Shown here: one piece after another, positions 3,074 to 40,070 of the stretch
Numbering within the stretch: position 1 is the first letter of the stretch
How the letters are laid out: the number at the start of each line of letters is the position of its first letter
DNA from: a virus
Length of the DNA: 40,070 nucleotides
Virus record (IMG/VR): IMGVR_UViG_3300044641_010277
Span: 1-40,070 of that record
Strand: one strand, 5' to 3'
Notes under the pieces: generated by a model
Told to the model about the DNA's origin: nothing
What the model saw: only the letters and a program-made list of their open reading frames with translations
Database searches by the model: none
Program-made: the position numbers and the translations under genes

Positions 3074-3856
3074 TTATTTCTTGCCCTTCTTAATCTCTTC
3101 GACTATGCTTCCAAACAGTCTAGTATGCTTCTCCTGTAGGTATGGATTTAGATCTGAAATCCTTTCTCCGATGATCTCAGGGTAAGCTTCTTTGTTGTTG
3201 GAGAAGAACTCATATGCAAGCTCAGCTAATTTCCACTTCGATATTCTCCCAAGGAAATCTAGATCGCTTTCCCATATTTTTCGAAGCCCTTTATTGTCTA
3301 GTGCCTGCTTTGGTTCGATTGTAACGAAATAACTTATATAGTTCGCTTTCCCATTTAGGCCGAAACCTGGACAGGGTTCTAGCCAACCCTTTGAACAGGC
3401 CGCACCAAACTGAGTGTTAGGCCTAATTGGGCGCAATGCCATTGAGCCTAGCACCAAGACTGACTCTGGCGAACCGTGGGCTAATTGAGCCAGGACGTTA
3501 GGCCTACAGGCGCGTTCAGATTCACTAATGGGCACCAACCTGGAATCCGGCCTGCAACCCAGGGAAGGGATTAATCGGACTTTCCCCCAGGATATGCCTG
3601 CCCTTTCCGCTAGAGACTCCTCTAAGAAGTCCCTCTCCCTGCCAACTATTGAAAGCCCCTGTTGAGAAGCCATTGGGGAAGGCGGAGGAAGGATGATAGC
3701 TAGGATCGGAGAGGAACTTCCCTGACTTGATACAGGACTTGAATTTTTATGTAAACCGCAAAGCTGACAATTTCTGACATTGTTTTGCAGTGAAGTGTAA
3801 GAAGTTGCTAAAGCTATTCTTTTTATTACTTCTGGGTTAGTGCCTTGAGCAATCAT
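3074..3856 (-). CDS. Uracil-DNA-glycosylase superfamily protein (Fe-S, family 4/5-like) with altered catalytic motifs
   Basis: 260 aa. The layout matches Fe-S uracil-DNA glycosylases: four cysteines at 30, 33, 101 and 117 (NCQLC, LGCRPDSR, ACRPN) fit the cluster ligands; VGRERDFLEESL (71-82) matches the PFVGRAG-type segment; VLVLGSMAL (133-141) matches the LGxxA strand; and TIEPKQAL (179-186) lies where families 4 and 5 carry an HPS/HPA motif. The usual GExPGxxE/D motif is replaced by a proline-rich LPPPSPMASQQG, and the catalytic-loop His is Glu. Known members excise uracil from DNA; this one may be inactive, altered in substrate, or a structural partner. GGAG lies eight bases before the ATG. 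The sliding clamp is encoded just upstream, and clamp-UDG contacts are known in other systems. Confidence 0.75.
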   Translation of the reverse strand: MIAQGTNPEVIKRIALATSYTSLQNNVRNCQLCGLHKNSSPVSSQGSSSPILAIILPPPSPMASQQGLSIVGRERDFLEESLAERAGISWGKVRLIPSLGCRPDSRLVPISESERACRPNVLAQLAHGSPESVLVLGSMALRPIRPNTQFGAACSKGWLEPCPGFGLNGKANYISYFVTIEPKQALDNKGLRKIWESDLDFLGRISKWKLAELAYEFFSNNKEAYPEIIGERISDLNPYLQEKHTRLFGSIVEEIKKGKK

Positions 3857-3922: not shown

Positions 3923-5089
3923 CTAACCTGCCTCCTGATTTAGTATTAACTGGCATACTCCAGTATATTTTGCCAATGATTTTTGGTAATTCTTTTCGTG
4001 CAACACATATAAACAGTTTGATTGAGGCTTTCTGAGTTTGATTACTCCATCTGCAACCGAACAAAGATCAAAAAACCTCTTTGAGTTTACCGTGAAGAAA
4101 GGGAACTCTCCGTTTACGTTTTCAGCCCTGCAACAGTCTGAAGCTGTTTTTTTAGAAACGAAAGAACAAGCTAGCATTGACAGATTCTGTCCTTCTTCGC
4201 TACTGGTTAGGCTTACTAACAGATTCTTGTTGTCTTCGTTTTTTGTGCAAGTAGACACTCTTTCTAATGACTTTTGAATAGCTCCTGAGTTCACTTCTAA
4301 ATCTGCAATGAAGCTTTCTTTTTTCATTTTGTTCTTTATTGATGCAGTGTTTAGCTCTACCGACCTAAAGGATGCCCAAATATGATCTTGCTCAAAAACT
4401 ACGAGATTAGATGGAAGGTGTGAAGCTGGAAATTTAAAGTTTATAGGCCTTGTGTGATCAAACTTTATTTTCAGAAGTGCAGAACAGGCGTAAGGTGGAA
4501 TCATGGTCTGCCTGATATCTCCAACTTCGTCTTCTTCAGTAATCTCAACAACTAAAGCTGAAATTCCATCTATTCCAGTTAGGTATACTTTTCCGTTCTC
4601 TGCCTCTAAATAAACTCCAGAAGCATCTGCTCCAGGAGGTCTTTCCTTTGATGCAAACTTTAAACAAGACTCAATCCCCTGAATCAATGGTCCGGCCAGT
4701 AACTCTTCGCATTCAGTTCTGACTTTCCAGTAATTTGAATCCATAAAATCAGAGGCTGGAAATATTGGAAAACTTTGGCTAGATCCTTTTACTGAGGCTT
4801 TAAAGAATCCATTGTTAAGATCGAACTTTATGACTCCTTCCAACAGTTTCACATAGTCTAGTAGTTCATGGGCAGAGAAGAGAAAGTCAAAGTTTGTCAT
4901 TGGCTTAGCTATCTCTGACAGATCAATTTCTATCATCGATTCAGTATCTGTTCCGCTAAGCTTTAATTTTCCATCTTTGCTGGTTATTTTTGCCTGAGTA
5001 AATGAAACTATTGTGCTTTTCCTGGGAACAACTGAACAAATCATAGTTAAGCACTTTGTAAAGAAGTTAGATTCGCAACAAAAGATCAT
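3923..5089 (-). CDS. dnaN: DNA polymerase III beta subunit (sliding clamp)
   Basis: 388 aa, close to the usual 365-390 residues of bacterial beta clamps. The N-terminus aligns with the family pattern: a short strand, then RKSTIVSFTQAKI and GKLKLSGTDTESMIEIDL, matching the conserved LSLTGTDLE region. Three repeated clamp domains of about 125 residues are plausible, although sequence conservation fades toward the C-terminus. The ring-shaped dimer would encircle DNA and tether a polymerase, MutS-like or nuclease partner. The gene overlaps the upstream ERCC4 nuclease by four bases. No polymerase is visible in the window, so a host polymerase III is the probable client. Phage-encoded clamps of bacterial type are uncommon. 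Confidence 0.85.
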   Translation of the reverse strand: MIFCCESNFFTKCLTMICSVVPRKSTIVSFTQAKITSKDGKLKLSGTDTESMIEIDLSEIAKPMTNFDFLFSAHELLDYVKLLEGVIKFDLNNGFFKASVKGSSQSFPIFPASDFMDSNYWKVRTECEELLAGPLIQGIESCLKFASKERPPGADASGVYLEAENGKVYLTGIDGISALVVEITEEDEVGDIRQTMIPPYACSALLKIKFDHTRPINFKFPASHLPSNLVVFEQDHIWASFRSVELNTASIKNKMKKESFIADLEVNSGAIQKSLERVSTCTKNEDNKNLLVSLTSSEEGQNLSMLACSFVSKKTASDCCRAENVNGEFPFFTVNSKRFFDLCSVADGVIKLRKPQSNCLYVLHEKNYQKSLAKYTGVCQLILNQEAG

Positions 5090-5736
5090 TTGAAAAACTC
5101 CAATATTCTTTTTGATTTTTTTGGACCTATCTTATCAATCTTCTCTAGTCCTCCATTAAGAACTTCTGGGATCAAATCAAATGGAAGCCTTCCATACTCT
5201 TCGAGAATCCTCTCCGCAGTAGTTGCTCCGACACCAGGAATCCCCTGAAGAAAGTGAAGCTTCCAAGCAGTGTCATCTGCCTCTCTTCCTGGTCCTGGCC
5301 TTGTTGATAATCCTGTGTGACAAGATTTGTCGCACCAGGAAAAAAAAGAAACTATTGATGTTATTGTCTCTTCTTTTCTATCTGTCCAAAGGTATGGAAT
5401 TTTGTGTGTGATCTGTATTGATAAAAGAATTCCCAAAAGCTGAACTCTAGAAAATCCTCCTAGTCTTGGATTTGCCAGATTGCCTTCAGAAGTCCAAACC
5501 CCTCTGCCCTCAAGTATTAGTAAACAGTTTGGTATTGATAGCATCATTGGCAATTCCCTATGAAGTCTTCCATCTCTAACAGATGAGAGAAAATCTTCTG
5601 GAAATTGTTTCCGCTGAACTCCTGCTAATCCGCTAGATGTTGGGCAGAGAAAGTCTACTCCGTATTGCTCAGGTAAAGATGAGGTTTTTCCAATTGCCTG
5701 AAAAACACTTGGTTCAGTTGGAGAAACTAGAATCAT
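5086..5736 (-). CDS. ERCC4-family nuclease with helix-hairpin-helix domain
   Basis: 216 aa with the ATG at 5734-5736, which overlaps the upstream stop as TGATG; a TTG nine bases further upstream is less likely. The N-terminal half carries the ERCC4/XPF signature as GVQRK at about 39-43 followed by an acidic residue near 48 (consensus VERKxxxD), so the first acidic position is Gln. The C-terminal 55 residues contain two helix-hairpin-helix motifs (IPGVGATTAERIL and IDKIGPKKSKRIL), as in XPF/Mus81 proteins that cut branched or flap DNA. It lies between the Sak4-like ATPase and the clamp, consistent with processing recombination or replication intermediates. Confidence 0.82.
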   Translation of the reverse strand: MILVSPTEPSVFQAIGKTSSLPEQYGVDFLCPTSSGLAGVQRKQFPEDFLSSVRDGRLHRELPMMLSIPNCLLILEGRGVWTSEGNLANPRLGGFSRVQLLGILLSIQITHKIPYLWTDRKEETITSIVSFFSWCDKSCHTGLSTRPGPGREADDTAWKLHFLQGIPGVGATTAERILEEYGRLPFDLIPEVLNGGLEKIDKIGPKKSKRILEFFK

Positions 5737-6572
5737 CAATGACAATTCCAGCCTGCTATTCTCATTAAGTAGTCATTTGCAAAGCCTCCTAAAACCACTT
5801 GGTTACCGTTTTGATCTACTCCAAAAAACTCTGAAACCTGGCAATCAATCTGAACCCTGCCTCTGTCTTTCACTGTTCGCATCCAATATTTTCGATCTCT
5901 TCCCTCTTTTTTCTGCTGCATAAAAATCACAGTATGGACATCATGATCTGTATCTTTATATCCTGAAGGCTTAAATCCAACCCTGCCATATTTTGTCACT
6001 ATGCTTTCACTGTCTAATTTATCGTTAACGGGTGAGGCAGTTGAACAGATTATTACATTAGCTCCAAGTTTGAAGAAGATTTTTTGGGCTAATGTTTTAT
6101 ATAGCTTTTTGATGATTGTCCAATCTTTAAGCCCATCGAATGGATTGACTTTTTTAGAGCCAGAACTTGCCAGGTTCTCTCGCATCTCCAGAAAGAAGTC
6201 ATCGATGCCCTTGTGAAAAACCTTCTCTGTATAATGCTCTTGCGCCCAATCCCAAAGTTTACAGAAAAGATCTATCACTAAAAAGTCCCCCCTCTCTGGC
6301 TTGATTAGTGACGAAATTTTATCTAGAGCTTTATCCGCTTCTAACCAGGATGAAACCTCGAAGATGTCAATATTTGTCAACCAAGGAAAAGCAGTTTGAA
6401 GTGTTCTTTCCGAACCGCAATCTGTATCAACAAAAAAGAATCTTGCTGGCTTTCCTAATTGCTGAGAAACTGCTGCAACCGTAAAAGTTGAGTAGCTTTT
6501 CCCATCTCCCGCTTGTCCATAAAGCATAATTCTTTCTTGCAGCTTTCTTTTTATTACAGGTAAATTATTCAC
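5736..6572 (-). CDS. RecA-fold ATPase, Sak4-like recombination protein
   Basis: 278 aa. Walker A is GQAGDGKS at 19-26 and Walker B is DFLVID ending at Asp101. FFFVDTDCGSER (45-56) resembles the strand-loop after Walker A in phage RecA-like AAA proteins (Sak4 group), which promote single-strand annealing or exchange together with an SSB. Start is a GTG (6570-6572) with AGGT five bases upstream, overlapping the previous gene. Neighbours (exonuclease, ERCC4 nuclease, clamp) support a recombination or replication-fork role. A terminase or helicase loader function is less likely given the context. Confidence 0.8.
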   Translation of the reverse strand: MNNLPVIKRKLQERIMLYGQAGDGKSYSTFTVAAVSQQLGKPARFFFVDTDCGSERTLQTAFPWLTNIDIFEVSSWLEADKALDKISSLIKPERGDFLVIDLFCKLWDWAQEHYTEKVFHKGIDDFFLEMRENLASSGSKKVNPFDGLKDWTIIKKLYKTLAQKIFFKLGANVIICSTASPVNDKLDSESIVTKYGRVGFKPSGYKDTDHDVHTVIFMQQKKEGRDRKYWMRTVKDRGRVQIDCQVSEFFGVDQNGNQVVLGGFANDYLMRIAGWNCH

Positions 6573-7626: not shown

Positions 7627-7830
7627 TTAGTCAGTGTCAAAAATTGACATTATTATGTTTGATAGTTTTATTCCATCTTCTTTACTGAGTTCACAAGGTA
7701 TCTCAACTTTGATTTCTTGGTTCTTGCCAAGAAAGATTACATGGCATCTCCTAAAGTTTTCATTGATAAATACATCGAAACCTGGAATTTCACTTGATGA
7801 AGTCTCTTTATCCTTGTCTACTATCTTCAT
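7627..7830 (-). CDS. Hypothetical small acidic protein (67 aa)
   Basis: Unrecognised. Predicted beta strands (FDVFINENFRRCHVIFLG and EIKVEIPCEL) followed by a short helix suggest a compact fold. The ATG overlaps the stop of the exonuclease gene by four bases, so the two are translationally coupled; it may be an accessory partner of the exonuclease. Confidence 0.65.
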   Translation of the reverse strand: MKIVDKDKETSSSEIPGFDVFINENFRRCHVIFLGKNQEIKVEIPCELSKEDGIKLSNIIMSIFDTD

Positions 7831-8855
7831 TTCTTCTCCCTGTAATCAATTCTCATATGAGTTCCCTGAGTTTTATACTGTTCTTCCAGTTTAGCGATCT
7901 CAGGGTAGTCTCTTTTTAATGCAGTTCTATCGATTGCAGGTGGAGAGTTTTGAGTTCTTATAGTGTATCTTCCGCACCTAACTTTCTCGTGTTCTGAGTT
8001 CTTATGGAACTGTTCTAGGGCTGATTTTATCCGTTTCTGCTCTTCGCACAGGTTGCCAATCTCTGTCCCTAACTGCCTGTTTCTATCAAGCAGGTTAATG
8101 ATTTGTTGACCCTGGTCCGAGGCTTCATCTAGCTCTAGGATCTTGTTTTCGTTCTTGTCTTCTTCGTGCAAGTCTTCAAATAAGCAAGGAAATTTCTGCT
8201 TCGAAGACTCAAAGCACACTAATTTCTCTCCATTTTTAGACTTGTTTATTAACTCCATAACAAGACTAGTTTTCTCTGTTATTCGGCCAACTACAGATGG
8301 ATCATGGTCGAATATTTGAATGTTAAGCCTAAGATCTTCTTTGCATTGGCAGGCCATAGCTATCTTTATGCCAGATCCTGTCTCAGAGTAACTCATATAT
8401 CCGTTTAGATAATGAGTGTAGAGATCTACTTGGTCTCTATAATTCTTGAACTCGTCCAACCCGGAAGAAAGGAATAGATCATAACTAGGTCCATACATTG
8501 ATTTAACTTCTAGCAAGCAAGGTCCTAAAACAACATTTTCCAAACCGAACTTTGGAATCGATGGGATACCCAGAAGTATCCCGTCTATATGACCCCTAAC
8601 CGTGCAACCGTTTTTCAGCGGTATGCTCACTTCCAATTGATCGCAGATTGGTCTAGCCCCCTCTCTGGCTAACCTATCTTTCACAATTAGTTCGTGCTCG
8701 TGTCCTAACTCAAAAGCTTTTAGAGTCCTGTGAGAGTGTTCCTCAATTCTTCCTAGAGCGATTGCAGCTAGTTTTACTGGACAAGATCCAATAGATGAGG
8801 CTCTAAAAATCCATCTTCCATCTTCAAAATAAACAGCAGGCCTGTTGTCTGACAT
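7827..8855 (-). CDS. PD-(D/E)XK exonuclease (RecB/Cas4-like phage recombination nuclease)
   Basis: 342 aa. The RecB-family motifs are visible in order: SSIGSC near 20-25, LGHEHE (His52), GHIDG (Asp91), LLEVKS (Glu116, Lys118) and QVDLYTHYL (Gln142, Tyr146). Such nucleases resect double-strand ends to feed a single-strand annealing or strand-exchange protein. The region after about residue 250 is coiled coil (the LLDRNRQLGTEIGNL region) and is an unusual extension. Cys25 and later cysteines (about 210-225) raise a Fe-S cluster as in Cas4/AddB, but the full four-Cys pattern was not found. The ATG follows GGAGGTAAAAA. A strong terminator lies just upstream. Confidence 0.8.
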   Translation of the reverse strand: MSDNRPAVYFEDGRWIFRASSIGSCPVKLAAIALGRIEEHSHRTLKAFELGHEHELIVKDRLAREGARPICDQLEVSIPLKNGCTVRGHIDGILLGIPSIPKFGLENVVLGPCLLEVKSMYGPSYDLFLSSGLDEFKNYRDQVDLYTHYLNGYMSYSETGSGIKIAMACQCKEDLRLNIQIFDHDPSVVGRITEKTSLVMELINKSKNGEKLVCFESSKQKFPCLFEDLHEEDKNENKILELDEASDQGQQIINLLDRNRQLGTEIGNLCEEQKRIKSALEQFHKNSEHEKVRCGRYTIRTQNSPPAIDRTALKRDYPEIAKLEEQYKTQGTHMRIDYREKK

Positions 8856-10590: not shown

Positions 10591-12927
10591 CTAGCTAGTA
10601 TCAATTCCGTTTAAAGCGATTGGGTCTCTATTGTCAAACACTAAGCCGTTAATAAACCAACGAGGCATAAAGTGTGACATTTCTTTGTATAATCTTAAGA
10701 ACTGTTCGTCTATGATAAATGTTCGACACCAGTCTTCCCTATGTCGCATTCCTCTTCCTGTCATTTGAATGATTGTGCGTAGAGTATTTGCCCGATACCA
10801 GACTTCCCCGTCTCGTTTTGTTGGTTGTCTGCTGCGCCTAGAGATCTGTTTGTCTCCAAGCGAAGGAAACGGAATTTTTGGAATAACAACAATGCGACAC
10901 AAGTCATCTTTCAAATTGACTCCTCTGTCCATACTTGGAGCCAGCAGGATGCCATCTTTTGTCTTCCTGAGTTCGTCGATAGCCAGATCTCTTTCACTTG
11001 CTTGAGTGTATGATATAGAGCTTAGTAAGTTGTCTGCAAAAAAGTCTTGTAAATATCTAGTCAATTCGTAAGAAACAGTATGAATCAACATTCTTCCTGG
11101 GTAATTCTGGCGAATCCTTAAACACTCTTTAGCAATAACAGGCATACTCGTATCCTTGTTTTTGTAGGTCATCGATGCAACTGGCTTAACAAAAACAGGC
11201 CTTCTCTCTGCTGGAAAGTTACTCTCAATGCGAATGAATTCAAAGTCTTTTAGACCAATATTATCGGCAAACTCTTCTGGACTAAGGACAGTTCCCGACA
11301 TCACTATATTGATTATTGAGTGTTTGAATAAGTATTTTTCTCCGTATTTACCAACACGAACAGGACGGAAAATCACTGACTTATCTTTAATTTCGTAAAC
11401 CCAAGGCTCTTGATCTTCTGCAGTATTGTCGGAGAGCTTTTCAATGTCTGACTTAACGTCATCAATTTTTATGAGTGTCTCTTTACAAGTCTTCAGAAAT
11501 GGATCTTCATCCTCATCTGACTCTATACAGTCTTCCGTTTCCTCTCGTATGTATTCCCTGATTTTCTCGTAAAGTTGAGACAACCAGGCAGTTCTTTTTG
11601 ACCAACGAGAGTGAGAGGATGGAGGAGTCTCTTTGAAAAATTCAAGAATTTTAGGTCCAATAGTTAGCTCAATAAATCCCATCAAAGCTTTTTCAAGTTC
11701 GTCGGCTTCGTCAAAAATTGACACTCCACGGTTTGCAAATCCCTCAGAAATCTTTAGGTTAGGATTAAATCCTAGGCTTCCAGCATAGTTGTCATTTCCT
11801 GCTGCTCCAAAGTGATTTGCTGTTAGGAAATATTGAGTATTGAGAACCGCGCAATCAGAAGCCTGAGCTATTTTTTTGGCTTTTACATAAGGGCACTTTC
11901 TCTTGCTTGATTCAGCAATAATTGAGCCATCTTCCCGAACAAATGGGAGACACAAACTGCAACCCTTCCCCTTTTTGTAGTTGCACTTATCGCAAGTAAG
12001 ATAAGAGTCTGCTGCTTTGTAATTATTGCGCCCCTTCAGGATTCTTGAGTCAGAAAAGTCTGAGTGAAACTGTTCTTGTAAAGGCTTTGTTGAGCAAATG
12101 TAGTTTATCCTAGCACCAACCATCTGGCCAACTAGGTAACCGTATAAAGTTTTTCCCATTCCAACAGGACCTTCGAGCAAGATGTTTCGCTTTCCGCCTT
12201 CAATGGCTTCTGCGGTTGCCTGTAGCGCCTGAATCTGTCCCTGGTTTAACTCTGTTGCCCAATCTGGAAGAATTAAGGAACTTAATGGTTTGCAAGTTAT
12301 TTTGCTGAAAACTTGAATCTTTTGATCTCCAAACTGATTTTGATCAAAAGATTTTTCATCAAAGTCTTCTTCCTCTGAAACATCTTTGTTAGTGTCTAAT
12401 ATTGACACTCCATCTTTCTTTACATCAATGCTGAAGCCCACGAATTCTGAAGAGTATTCCTCTTTCCATTCGTTCAAAAAAAACTCTTCCACAGACTCTG
12501 ACTTTTCTTTAGCTAGAATTTTTATTGTTGCTGGCTCAACTTTTGGAGATTCATCCAAGATCTTAATCTCTAAGGGATTCCAGGTTAGGTCAACCAAGGA
12601 AATTTTAGGAGCTAAGGAAACCTGCTTGCTCTTTCCGATTGCGTTTAAAATTCTCACAGCAATCGAATGGCTACAGTTTGACTTCCTGTAGCCACCTTTG
12701 TTATGGGAGGAACACTCGCAATTGTATCTTCCGCTTTGATCTATAGTAACAAGGTAATCTGAAAACTCATCTCCTAGAGATGGCCTTCCTTTCACTTTAA
12801 AAATCAAATCTGAAACCTCAGAAACATCTTCCAGTCTCTTCTCTGCTCGTTGGATCAAACTATCCTTAATCCAATCAGGTAAACCATAATGAACCGACCA
12901 GGATTCATGCGTCTTTGGTTTTTTCAT
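10591..12927 (-). CDS. SWIM zinc finger fused to a DinG/XPD-like helicase
   Basis: 778 aa, superfamily 2 helicase. N-terminal SWIM zinc finger: Cys70, Cys72, Cys85, His87 (CxCx12CxH). Helicase domain: Walker A GPVGMGKT at 253-260; iron-sulfur cysteines 312, 315, 323, 326 and 345; Walker B as DEAD at 406-409 (XPD/DinG members usually have DEAH); and motif VI QMTGRGMRHR near the C-terminus. DinG/XPD enzymes unwind DNA 5' to 3' and resolve R-loops, D-loops or forks. It follows the ribbon-helix-helix gene by one base, whose last codons supply the GAGG ribosome-binding site, and may be the main replication helicase here. Confidence 0.88.
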   Translation of the reverse strand: MKKPKTHESWSVHYGLPDWIKDSLIQRAEKRLEDVSEVSDLIFKVKGRPSLGDEFSDYLVTIDQSGRYNCECSSHNKGGYRKSNCSHSIAVRILNAIGKSKQVSLAPKISLVDLTWNPLEIKILDESPKVEPATIKILAKEKSESVEEFFLNEWKEEYSSEFVGFSIDVKKDGVSILDTNKDVSEEEDFDEKSFDQNQFGDQKIQVFSKITCKPLSSLILPDWATELNQGQIQALQATAEAIEGGKRNILLEGPVGMGKTLYGYLVGQMVGARINYICSTKPLQEQFHSDFSDSRILKGRNNYKAADSYLTCDKCNYKKGKGCSLCLPFVREDGSIIAESSKRKCPYVKAKKIAQASDCAVLNTQYFLTANHFGAAGNDNYAGSLGFNPNLKISEGFANRGVSIFDEADELEKALMGFIELTIGPKILEFFKETPPSSHSRWSKRTAWLSQLYEKIREYIREETEDCIESDEDEDPFLKTCKETLIKIDDVKSDIEKLSDNTAEDQEPWVYEIKDKSVIFRPVRVGKYGEKYLFKHSIINIVMSGTVLSPEEFADNIGLKDFEFIRIESNFPAERRPVFVKPVASMTYKNKDTSMPVIAKECLRIRQNYPGRMLIHTVSYELTRYLQDFFADNLLSSISYTQASERDLAIDELRKTKDGILLAPSMDRGVNLKDDLCRIVVIPKIPFPSLGDKQISRRSRQPTKRDGEVWYRANTLRTIIQMTGRGMRHREDWCRTFIIDEQFLRLYKEMSHFMPRWFINGLVFDNRDPIALNGIDTS

Positions 12928-12928
12928 T

Positions 12929-13567
12929 TTAATCCTCTTCCTGGAGTAGTGCGGCCTGAGCTTTAGACTTCAGTATTTTCAACTGCTTCAAAAATCTTTT
13001 TCGGTAAGGATCGTTCATTTCGCGAGCATTTTTTTCTAGATACTCAATCAGTGTAAAAGCTTGATTAAAGTCTTTGCGTCTTACCAATGATTTGATCTGT
13101 TTGTTGGCTTTAATCGAAACAGTATCAAAAGCTCTTCCCTCTGACTCGATCTTATCAATCATAGCCTCCGAAAGGTAGGGAGCTAATACGGCAGGATTCA
13201 TGTTGTCTTTATTTTTGAGCAACCAAGCAACCCTTTGAATAATTGCATCTCGAACGAATTCTGAGGTTGTTTTGTAAGCTGGAACTTGCTCTTTAACGTA
13301 TGACAGTAAACCTCCCCAATGCTGAGGGAGCCTTACAGTGATTACACTTGAGTGTCCCTGTTTGTCTTTGCTTGTCGAAAAAACAACTGCAGGATCTATC
13401 TGGTCAACAATTTCCAGGCTTCTCTGTATTTCGGAAGATCTCTCATTGTTGATTGTCCATCTGTTCTTTCCATCTTCCAGTTGTGTGCTCTCGTGCGCTA
13501 TCACTTCTGCAGCGATCTGTTCCTTGATTGTCCTCATTGCAGGCGTAGTTGGTGGGGACTTTTTCAA
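12929..13567 (-). CDS. Ribbon-helix-helix DNA-binding protein, probable regulator/initiator/partition protein
   Basis: 212 aa. Residues 74-118 form a ribbon-helix-helix: strand SVITVRLP, helix WGGLLSYVKEQV, turn, helix TTSEFVRDAIIQRVAWLL. Such dimers (CopG, Arc, omega) bind short tandem repeats. The C-terminal 90 residues are helical and basic. Start is a TTG with AAGGA about nine bases upstream; an ATG at 13535-13537 has none. It is the first gene after the GTAATAC array and heads the replication operon, so it is the obvious candidate to bind the array. Residues 14-35 match the Q-rich protein at 9553. Confidence 0.75.
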   Translation of the reverse strand: MKKSPPTTPAMRTIKEQIAAEVIAHESTQLEDGKNRWTINNERSSEIQRSLEIVDQIDPAVVFSTSKDKQGHSSVITVRLPQHWGGLLSYVKEQVPAYKTTSEFVRDAIIQRVAWLLKNKDNMNPAVLAPYLSEAMIDKIESEGRAFDTVSIKANKQIKSLVRRKDFNQAFTLIEYLEKNAREMNDPYRKRFLKQLKILKSKAQAALLQEED

Positions 13568-13579
13568 AGTTTTTCCTTC

Positions 13580-13627
13580 CTCTCTGGCGCACAGAGAGCA
13601 TCTCCCTGGCGCTATGGTTGGCCAGGG
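13580..13627 (-). promoter_or_regulatory. Two hairpins in the leader of the ribbon-helix-helix gene
   Basis: CTCTCT (13580-13585) pairs with AGAGAG (13593-13598) over a 7-nt loop, and CCCTGGC (13604-13610) pairs with GCCAGGG (13621-13627) over a 10-nt loop. Both lie between the repeat array and the TTG start. No long T-run follows, so attenuation or message stability is more likely than simple termination. The second stem includes GGCCAGGGTTG, also found at the end of the 41-bp repeat copy at 16105. Confidence 0.5.
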
Positions 13628-13629
13628 TT

Positions 13630-13858
13630 GGCCTAGGTGACTTGGATAGGTGTAGTTTGTAATACGGTAACACGCAGGTTGTAATACAGTAATACGTATT
13701 ACAATGCTCCTACCAGTCTGTCCTCGTGATACACGTTACTATATAGTATGTGATCACGCTTTTGGCGTATTACTGTATTACATATTACATTTTTGTCATA
13801 CAGCAGTGTAATACAGGCTAGTGTATTACAGGTGCCCTGTATTACAATGGCCTAGGCC
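13630..13858. repeat. Iteron-like array of ten GTAATAC elements with palindromic centre
   Basis: GTAATAC occurs at 13659, 13681, 13689 and 13808; its complement GTATTAC at 13696, 13767, 13775, 13823 and 13839; a one-mismatch copy is at 13782. Extended consensus is TGTAATAC(A/G). Units 13681/13689/13696 and 13767/13775/13782 are spaced 7-8 bp, one inverted pair forming GTAATACGTATTAC (13689-13702). Between the clusters lie palindromes TACTATATAGTA (13737-13748) and GTGATCAC (13750-13757). GGCCTAGG flanks both ends (13630-13637, 13849-13856). The layout fits an iteron origin, a partition site or a multi-site operator for the adjacent ribbon-helix-helix protein. Confidence 0.88.
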
Positions 13859-14073
13859 TATACTATCGAATAGCTAATTACCCATTCGCAACTATTCAAG
13901 AAGACAGCTTGAGCAGAACTTACATCATCTTCTTTGCCTAGTTCGATCCAAATGGCAGAATGAAAATCTGAGGGACCTTCGCTCTCATAAAAAGTAAACT
14001 GTCCCTCCTTAAATGGGAAGCCATTTAAACATCCATTTGGGCAATCGAATTCAAAATAGATTACTAGCTGCAC
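13858..14073 (-). CDS. Hypothetical small protein (71 aa)
   Basis: Unrecognised, beta-rich and acidic, with two cysteines in DCPNGC near the N-terminus. The GTG start at 14071-14073 follows GGAGG by seven bases and overlaps the end of the zinc-ribbon gene. Its stop codon touches the right-hand GGCCTAGG box of the repeat array, so this is the last gene before the array. Confidence 0.65.
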   Translation of the reverse strand: MQLVIYFEFDCPNGCLNGFPFKEGQFTFYESEGPSDFHSAIWIELGKEDDVSSAQAVFLNSCEWVISYSIV

Positions 14074-14743: not shown

Positions 14744-15646
14744 TCAAAACTTTACTGCCTCGCATTCTTTGGAACTCAACTCAAGCTCTATTTCAGATCT
14801 AACTTTTTTAGACACAGATTCTCCATCCCACGAGAAACAGATCAAGTCTGACTCTCCATAAAGTCGACCAGATCGATGCACAGAGAACCCTTCCCCAGGT
14901 TGGAGAGCGATCAAGTATTCTGCTCCCCCCCCCATTCTCCCGGCGTCACCCTGGGCACAATAACCTTCAGCAAGAATCTTTGGTTTGTCCAAAAACATCA
15001 ATCTGTCTTCTCTGTTTTTACAGAATTTACAGACTTGATTCTCTCTAGACTTCTCTAAAGCCCAATTTTCAAACTCAATTAAAGACCTAGTTGATTCAAC
15101 CCTGTCTTCTTTAATAGACGGAACACTATTAAATGAATTTAACTCAAAAAATAAACAAAACTTTTCTATGGTATCCCTTTTCCACAAGAACCATTCTATA
15201 TACTCATCATTGTCTGCATCTTCAGAAAATGAGATCGGCAACTTGGTGTAGTCTCCGTGTCTTGGAGAAGGGTTGTCTCGAAGCCAAAGATCAAAGCCCA
15301 ATTGAGCTTGTGAGCTATTAACTGGAATCTTGTGCTCACACTTCCCGGCAAACTTACCTAGCAACTTCCATGAACCACGGAAACCGCTTTGATCCATAAT
15401 CAATACGATAGCTGTTTTACCAGGCTCTTCTCCCTCATTTAATAGCTCTAGAGTGTGACACTTTTCCTTCCCATCAATTACTGAGCAAAGAGCCCATCCT
15501 TCCGATATTTTTTTGTCTGGTGTTGGGAAGTTAACTAGAGACTCTTCGCGACCTCTACCCTTCTCCCCAATAGACAAAAGCTTTGATGAAGAGTAAATAT
15601 AAGGAACTAGTCCGAATTTTTTTGAAACCGTGAAAAAATTAGCCAT
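14744..15646 (-). CDS. Hypothetical protein (300 aa) with CxxC motif and G9 tract
   Basis: The ATG at 15644-15646 is preceded by GGAGGTAACA; an in-frame TTG upstream only reads through the ribosome-binding site. The protein has mixed alpha/beta composition, with CKFC near residue 212 (NQVCKFCKNRED) as a possible half zinc site. Coding-strand ATGGGGGGGGGAGCA near residue 244 contains nine consecutive G bases, a slippage-prone tract that would shift the frame if altered by one base. Largest of the five genes right of the GTAATAC array; function unknown. Confidence 0.72.
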   Translation of the reverse strand: MANFFTVSKKFGLVPYIYSSSKLLSIGEKGRGREESLVNFPTPDKKISEGWALCSVIDGKEKCHTLELLNEGEEPGKTAIVLIMDQSGFRGSWKLLGKFAGKCEHKIPVNSSQAQLGFDLWLRDNPSPRHGDYTKLPISFSEDADNDEYIEWFLWKRDTIEKFCLFFELNSFNSVPSIKEDRVESTRSLIEFENWALEKSRENQVCKFCKNREDRLMFLDKPKILAEGYCAQGDAGRMGGGAEYLIALQPGEGFSVHRSGRLYGESDLICFSWDGESVSKKVRSEIELELSSKECEAVKF

Positions 15647-15691
15647 TGTTACCTCCAAAAAAAAATAAAAAAGTTAAAAAAGTTAAAAAAA

Positions 15692-15886: not shown

Positions 15887-15921
15887 CTTGTTACCTCCAA
15901 GAAAAAAAATGTGCTCCCCCC

Positions 15922-16072: not shown

Positions 16073-16113
16073 CCCCAAGCCTTCGCTTCGCTTCGGTGGC
16101 CTCCGGCCAGGGT
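16073..16113. repeat. 41-bp intergenic repeat, copy A
   Basis: Starts CCCCAAGCCTTCGCTTCGCT and ends CGGCCAGGGT. It matches positions 35373-35413 at 40 of 41 bases, same orientation. The element contains TGGCC-TCC-GGCCA, a 5-bp hairpin, and the only difference between copies is the middle base of its loop. This copy lies about 190 bases upstream of the first early gene. Confidence 0.9.
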
Positions 16114-35269: not shown

Positions 35270-35511
35270 CTTTTTATTCCTTTCAGTTTCACTAATAAGA
35301 GCTATTGCTCGCCTTGTTATTAAAAAAACGGTTCGATTCGGTTGGACTTCGTTAGCAAAGTTTTTTGGTCAACCCCAAGCCTTCGCTTCGCTTCGGTGGC
35401 CTTCGGCCAGGGTATGACTTCAAAAAACTGAGCAAACTTCGTTCCCCCCTCCTCTCCCGGCCGATAATCTTTATTATTGATAATCCTTGCCCAGAATCCG
35501 CGCTAGACTGC
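35270..35511. other. Non-coding leader of the capsid gene
   Basis: About 240 bases without a gene, between the small membrane-protein gene and the capsid start. It contains repeat copy B (35373-35413), a C-rich patch (35440-35462), and a direct repeat GATAATC at 35463-35469 and 35479-35485 (16-bp period). A TTGACC lies on the minus strand near 35365-35370, but no convincing -10 element was found. A capsid-specific promoter is possible. Confidence 0.55.
35373..35413. repeat. 41-bp intergenic repeat, copy B
   Basis: Matches copy A (16073-16113) at 40 of 41 bases in the same orientation, 19.3 kb away. The hairpin here reads TGGCC-TTC-GGCCA; only the middle loop base differs between copies. It lies 104 bases upstream of the capsid start, in the leader of the late structural genes. 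Confidence 0.9.
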
Positions 35512-39975: not shown

Positions 39976-40070
39976 TTGTCTAACCTCCAAAAAAAAATAG
40001 CGCCAACTTGTGACGCGGTATCATTGATTCAATTCGCTTTTAAGTTCTTTTTGTTGATTTTGTGTTCCGG
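39976..40070. other. Right-edge non-coding leader
   Basis: AT-rich sequence upstream of the terminase genes with an A9 run next to the ribosome-binding site. No promoter with both elements was seen and no repeat of the left edge is present. Confidence 0.4.

Follow-up and report, generated by a model that had tools for sequence, protein, structure and literature searches.

A Thirteen-Site GTAWTAC Array beside a Ribbon-Helix-Helix-Helicase Operon in a Virus Contig: a Candidate Operator and Possible Replication Origin

The closest known systems to the locus described here are CopG of pMV158, orf56/orf904 of pRN1, and omega/parS of pSM19035. In pMV158, one operon holds the gene of the ribbon-helix-helix (RHH) copy-control repressor CopG and, downstream of it, that of RepB, a rolling-circle initiator; a single short element serves as the operator. 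In lambda (O/P), P22 (18/12), and SPP1 (38/39/40), the gene of a DNA-binding protein sits beside a helicase or helicase loader gene, and iteron repeats are found at the module. ORF56 of pRN1 is CopG-like. The gene of this small DNA-binding repressor is cotranscribed with that of the replication protein (orf904); the repressor regulates copy number, and the origin has been proposed to lie downstream of orf904 (PMC4234260). Omega (ParB) of pSM19035 binds as RHH dimers to 7 to 10 contiguous 7-bp repeats, which may have either orientation and overlap promoters, with each dimer taking one repeat of the contiguous array (PMC9499535).

The window analyzed here is the whole 40,070-nucleotide stretch of IMG/VR virus record IMGVR_UViG_3300044641_010277, a 40-kb virus contig with terminase, portal, capsid, tail, holin, and endolysin genes. 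The gap at 13568-13857, flanked by the leftward genes 13858-14073 and 12929-13567, contains an array of GTAWTAC heptamers; the few short, overlapping ORFs inside it are mechanical only, and the array lies in non-coding DNA, as an earlier note on this sequence had stated. That note counted nine exact copies and one near copy. The nine exact GTAATAC copies were recovered on the two strands (13659, 13681, 13689, 13696, 13767, 13775, 13808, 13823, and 13839), and four near copies, each with one mismatch, were found instead of one (centers 13670, 13729, 13785, and 13798), giving 13 sites in total. The features of the gap are as follows.

13655 to 13850, no strand assigned: GTAWTAC array of 13 sites (9 exact and 4 one-mismatch), by motif scan and shuffles
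13703 to 13766, no strand assigned: inter-cluster spacer, read from the sequence, with the degenerate site GTGATAC (13726) and the palindrome TACTATATAGTA (13737-13748), the latter between GTGATAC and GTGATCAC
13629 to 13637, no strand assigned: TGGCCTAGG, outer boundary repeat on the left of the array (repeat family D5)
13848 to 13856, no strand assigned: TGGCCTAGG, outer boundary repeat on the right of the array (repeat family D5)

The array consensus is TGTAATAC, the exact GTAATAC/GTATTAC copies span 13659-13845, and most sites fall in two clusters, 13659-13702 and 13767-13845, with center-to-center spacings of the 13 sites of 8, 14, 8, 7, 30, 41, 8, 7, 13, 13, 15, and 16 bp. The occurrence of copies in both orientations, to which attention had been drawn, is largely trivial, since GTAWTAC is palindromic except for its central base; GTAATAC and its reverse complement differ at that base alone, and site orientation therefore says little. 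The whole record has 16 GTAATAC copies versus 1.75 ± 1.29 expected, and the gap has 9 versus 0.15 in 5,000 dinucleotide shuffles (shuffle maximum, 3). Among 776 300-bp windows elsewhere in the record, none holds any 7-mer as frequent as that of the array; equal density elsewhere, which had been named as the observation that would speak against a special role, was thus not found. Like an iteron origin, the array has many repeats of one site concentrated at one genome location. Its single-strand folding energy is far lower than that of shuffles (z, -4.8). A nucleotide-level search against known phages gave no match. The spacer, in which TACTATATAGTA forms an AT palindrome, is a possible promoter or unwinding element; no strong sigma-70-type match was seen within 13703-13766. 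Other repeats were also noted in the record: CTCYCTGGCGC, present twice, 22 bp apart, shortly before the start codon of the RHH gene (13580-13612; repeat family D4); a 41-nt GC-rich repeat, 98% identical, at 16073-16113 and 35373-35413, 19 kb apart (D6), which may be a control element or a terminator; and a common leader on the minus strand (poly-T plus GGAGGT) at 15646-15665, 15888-15907, and 39978-39997, at or close to where three leftward ORFs begin (D7).

The gene next to the array was proposed in the earlier note to encode an RHH protein, and the structural modeling of its product agrees with that proposal.

12929 to 13567, minus strand: RHH protein of 212 aa with a helical C-terminal domain, TTG start, and GGAAGG upstream (ORF list, relatives, and structure model)
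13211 to 13351, minus strand: RHH core, residues about 73 to 119, the strand VITVRL plus two helices (alignment, core model, and structure search)

A full-protein model built with 20 relatives was confident in the core region. Because the full-length model gave just generic helical matches in Foldseek/VIA, the core was modeled alone (pLDDT, 90), and the top PDB matches of this model are RHH proteins, i.e., NikR (2wvd; root mean square deviation of 1.1 over 45 aa), ParD antitoxins, Arc, and pCXC100 ParB. The predicted fold is a strand-helix-helix core like those of solved RHH structures, and by this model the 12929-13567 protein has the RHH fold. Buried (hydrophobic) and polar residues alternate in the VITVRLP strand and, by eye, likewise in most aligned members. 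At the sequence level, the best matches are CopG/Arc/MetJ antitoxins with E values of 0.01 to 0.02; PHROGs and Pfam, RHH models included, gave no match for this protein, and tblastn detected no relatives of it in deposited phages. An apparent second, N-terminal CopG-like segment was seen in the RHH proteins of three related loci, L018 (3710-4420), L025 (9206-9961), and L027 (8559-9245).

Leftward from the array, the RHH gene is followed by genes for an XPD/DinG-type helicase, a Cas4-type exonuclease, a methyltransferase, a Sak4-like ATPase, an ERCC4 nuclease, a beta clamp, and a uracil-DNA-glycosylase-like protein, which bears out the earlier observation that replication genes follow the array.

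10591 to 12927, minus strand: XPD/DinG-type helicase (phrog_2488, Helicase_C_2), the conserved partner and next gene downstream of the RHH gene (PHROGs, Pfam, and relatives)
7827 to 8855, minus strand: Cas4-domain/RecE-like exonuclease of the replication-recombination operon (annotation match)
5736 to 6572, minus strand: Sak4-like ATPase (annotation match)
5086 to 5745, minus strand: ERCC4 (XPF-like) nuclease with helix-hairpin-helix (domain match)
3923 to 5089, minus strand: DNA polymerase III beta-type sliding clamp (annotation and domain match)
3074 to 3856: uracil-DNA-glycosylase-like protein

The RHH and helicase genes are co-directional with 1 bp between them, a pairing that is kept in relatives, and nothing besides this operon starts directly downstream of the array. 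No match was found in the record, which is possibly incomplete, for ParA (PF13614; E ≤ 0.1) or actin-like ParM (PF17989), and none was found in it for a tyrosine integrase, DnaB, or PolA (family A polymerase). As DnaB was not found in the record, the XPD-type helicase is the sole candidate replicative helicase found. The beta clamp, the ERCC4 nuclease, and the uracil-DNA-glycosylase-like protein occur in the record without any recognized DNA polymerase, and the beta-type clamp suggests a bacterial host. A tblastn search with the ERCC4 nuclease found no relatives in deposited phages. The GC-skew analysis that had been recommended was run and is uninformative on the origin, since one strand carries nearly all the genes.

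The locus shares with CopG and pRN1 the layout of a co-directional RHH gene immediately 5′ of a replication gene. As in pMV158, the RHH gene precedes the replication gene in an operon, but a single short operator is found there versus a 190-bp array here, and RepB is a rolling-circle initiator. The lambda, P22, and SPP1 modules likewise bring together a DNA-binding gene, a helicase gene, and repeats; however, their initiators are not RHH proteins, and their helicases are of the DnaB type rather than the XPD/DinG type. pRN1 differs in being a plasmid, in that orf904 encodes one multifunctional replication protein, and in its proposed origin downstream of orf904, and no description of an array of 13 sites was found for orf56/orf904. 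Its likeness lies in an operon of a small repressor and a replication protein with the control region directly upstream (PMC4234260).

The first relative examined, L009, matches this gene order and likewise has an array, in other letters, upstream of its RHH gene. The helicase alignment was then widened to 80 loci, in about 19 of which, all from uncultivated viruses, an RHH-like gene abuts or closely precedes the helicase gene; the weakest of these pairs are L020, L042, and L054, which were unreported by the first profile, and L026, L033, and L041, which match the profile poorly. At least seven relatives have an array of their own.

L015, upstream of the RHH gene: motif TGTATACA, beyond all 60 shuffles
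L018, upstream of the RHH gene: motif TGTAWTACA, beyond all 60 shuffles
L041, upstream of the RHH gene: motif GGATATCC, beyond all 60 shuffles
L020, upstream of the RHH gene: motif GTAWGAC, beyond all 60 shuffles
L042, upstream of the RHH gene: motif TGTAACAC, beyond all 60 shuffles
L025, 1 kb further upstream: motif GTAWTAC, by copy concentration at one place
L009, upstream of the RHH gene: a weaker TGGTATCA set, missed by the shuffle test

The array of the present record is likewise beyond all 60 shuffles in the same upstream test. In L018 and L025, which have GC contents of 57 to 59%, five of the six heptamer copies in 14 kb and six of the seven GTAWTAC copies in 18.6 kb, respectively, sit in the array. 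Upstream arrays are more common with RHH-paired helicases (9/19) than with other XPD-type helicases (5/48; Fisher P = 0.002), a count that includes a coding repeat (CAGTGTC in L035) and weak cases (L034 and L026). The rest of the record has no comparable array. Arrays in relatives are linked to the RHH gene and the helicase, with letters that differ in most relatives; about half of the RHH-helicase loci (L010, L019, L032, L036, L047, and others) lack a significant array in the 450 bp upstream. Scanning the collection for three copies of GTAWTAC returned mostly coding repeats and unrelated contigs, with no RHH-helicase pair in the stretch examined, so the heptamer alone is not diagnostic. Non-coding GTAWTAC arrays were seen in unrelated viral contigs (L116, 6717-6850, and L166, 1890-2096), and AAATAGCAAA-type repeats occur upstream of an XPD-like helicase without an adjacent RHH gene in L222 and L223 (about 4876-5300). 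In six relatives (L013, 2092-3692; L020, 9995-11644; L041, 9983-12023; L042, 10010-11748; L054, 9998-11777; and L057, 9938-11634), the helicase is encoded by two genes that are divided at one common point (after about ATTISFxVxxxxLG), and the halves overlap, abut, or have small genes between them (L041); the split enzyme is possibly a two-subunit helicase. The array motif GTAAGACAGTATGAC of L020 reappears exactly at its helicase split (10975-10989).

Across eight arrays, the center-to-center distances peak at 7 to 8, 13 to 16, 22 to 23, and 28 to 31 bp, and the best period, 7.4 bp, was reached in none of 300 random placements. Restricting the analysis to exact or near-exact sites gives a period of 7.6 bp, which was reached in 3 of 1,000 placements and persists with this record left out. 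The sites thus lie on a lattice of about 7.5 bp, but with gaps, matching the spacing of cooperative RHH dimers. A common lattice under changing letters is as expected of arrays along which proteins of one kind pack. At the strand positions predicted to face the DNA, this record has R/T/V versus G/R/T and N/R/H in L018 and L025, despite the common GTAWTAC, and no simple rule pairing strand residues with motif letters across loci emerged from the alignment.

In the function proposed here, RHH dimers would bind the near-palindromic GTAWTAC sites of the adjoining array and line up side by side on the 7.5-bp lattice, forming two nucleoprotein blocks around the central spacer with its AT palindrome. 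This complex would autoregulate the RHH-helicase operon and would most probably also serve as the initiator at the replication origin of the phage, where the co-encoded XPD/DinG-type helicase would be recruited to open the DNA. Binding of the array by the RHH protein is very likely, and autoregulation is likely by analogy with pRN1 and pMV158. The case for an origin is about evenly balanced: the number of sites, the two blocks around the AT palindrome, the single location, and the constant helicase partner point to it, and the pRN1 analogy, in which the repressor partner is a copy-number regulator with the proposed origin elsewhere, counts against it. The whole reading, a cis-site of the RHH protein serving in autoregulation and as an origin with helicase recruitment, has in our estimate an even chance of being correct; the loci with no upstream array, the 1-kb distance of the L025 array, and the differing strand residues weigh against it. 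Among the operator, origin, and partition readings, operator and origin together are favored.

The array may instead be an operator only, with the RHH protein acting as a CopG/ORF56-like repressor that coats the RHH-helicase promoter and sets the dose of replication proteins, the origin being elsewhere. The position of the array directly upstream of the co-directional operon, where no other gene starts, argues for this, as does the use of the small protein as a repressor in the operon of the same layout in pRN1 (PMC4234260). However, two blocks with 13 sites over 190 bp appear to exceed the needs of a simple operator, and repression alone leaves the constant helicase partner unexplained; we consider this explanation possible but somewhat doubtful.

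It is improbable that another protein, a host or phage regulator, binds the array with the RHH gene as a bystander. Some related loci seem to have other DNA-binding genes nearby, with HTH-like reading frames in L013, L020, L042, and L054 and a second RHH-like gene in L009 and L010 (both by eye), but no further DNA-binding gene was recognized around the array of this record, the RHH gene is the constant neighbor, and the lattice suits RHH arrays better than HTH sites. A role as a partition site was among the options raised earlier; in this reading, which is very unlikely, an RHH ParB or ParR would bind the array as the centromere (parS/parC) of a plasmid-like phage. RHH ParBs do bind tandem heptads (PMC9499535), and pCXC100 ParB is among the fold matches of the core. 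The GTAWTAC array of L143 (5730-7040) consists of two triplets with 9- to 10-bp spacing; an actin-like gene (ALP_N) and then a short RHH-like gene come directly after it, and the arrangement resembles a parC centromere using this heptamer. The conserved partner here, however, is a helicase, and neither ParA nor ParM, nor a tyrosine integrase, was found in the possibly incomplete record; omega/parS requires ParA (delta) and contiguous, non-palindromic WATCACW repeats, whereas the sites here are near-palindromes at gapped multiples of about 7.5 bp. It is hardly credible that the array works as DNA structure, its repeats being extruded as hairpins or cruciforms on which the ERCC4/Cas4/Sak4 recombination set acts, as the low folding energy is expected of any array of palindromic sites and relatives preserve the spacing rather than long pairing arms, the L020 array being mainly direct repeats.

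The operator-and-origin reading would place the locus in an undescribed phage replication module, and searches of the open-access literature turned up no account of a phage module combining an RHH protein with an XPD-type helicase. We suggest tentatively that the initiator in such a module is an RHH protein rather than a winged-helix or Rep protein, that it nucleates the origin on a 7.5-bp-lattice array whose letters drift fast, and that an XPD/DinG-type helicase then takes over the DNA, the viruses themselves having no recognized DnaB-type helicase or family A polymerase. This would connect the RHH family, commonly regarded as one of repressors, antitoxins, or partition factors, with the replication module of a wide uncultivated siphovirus-like group and would provide a candidate, testable origin for phages that apparently copy their DNA without their own DnaB-type helicase or family A polymerase. 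The constant spacing and changing letters of the arrays may also offer a natural series for the evolution of RHH specificity.
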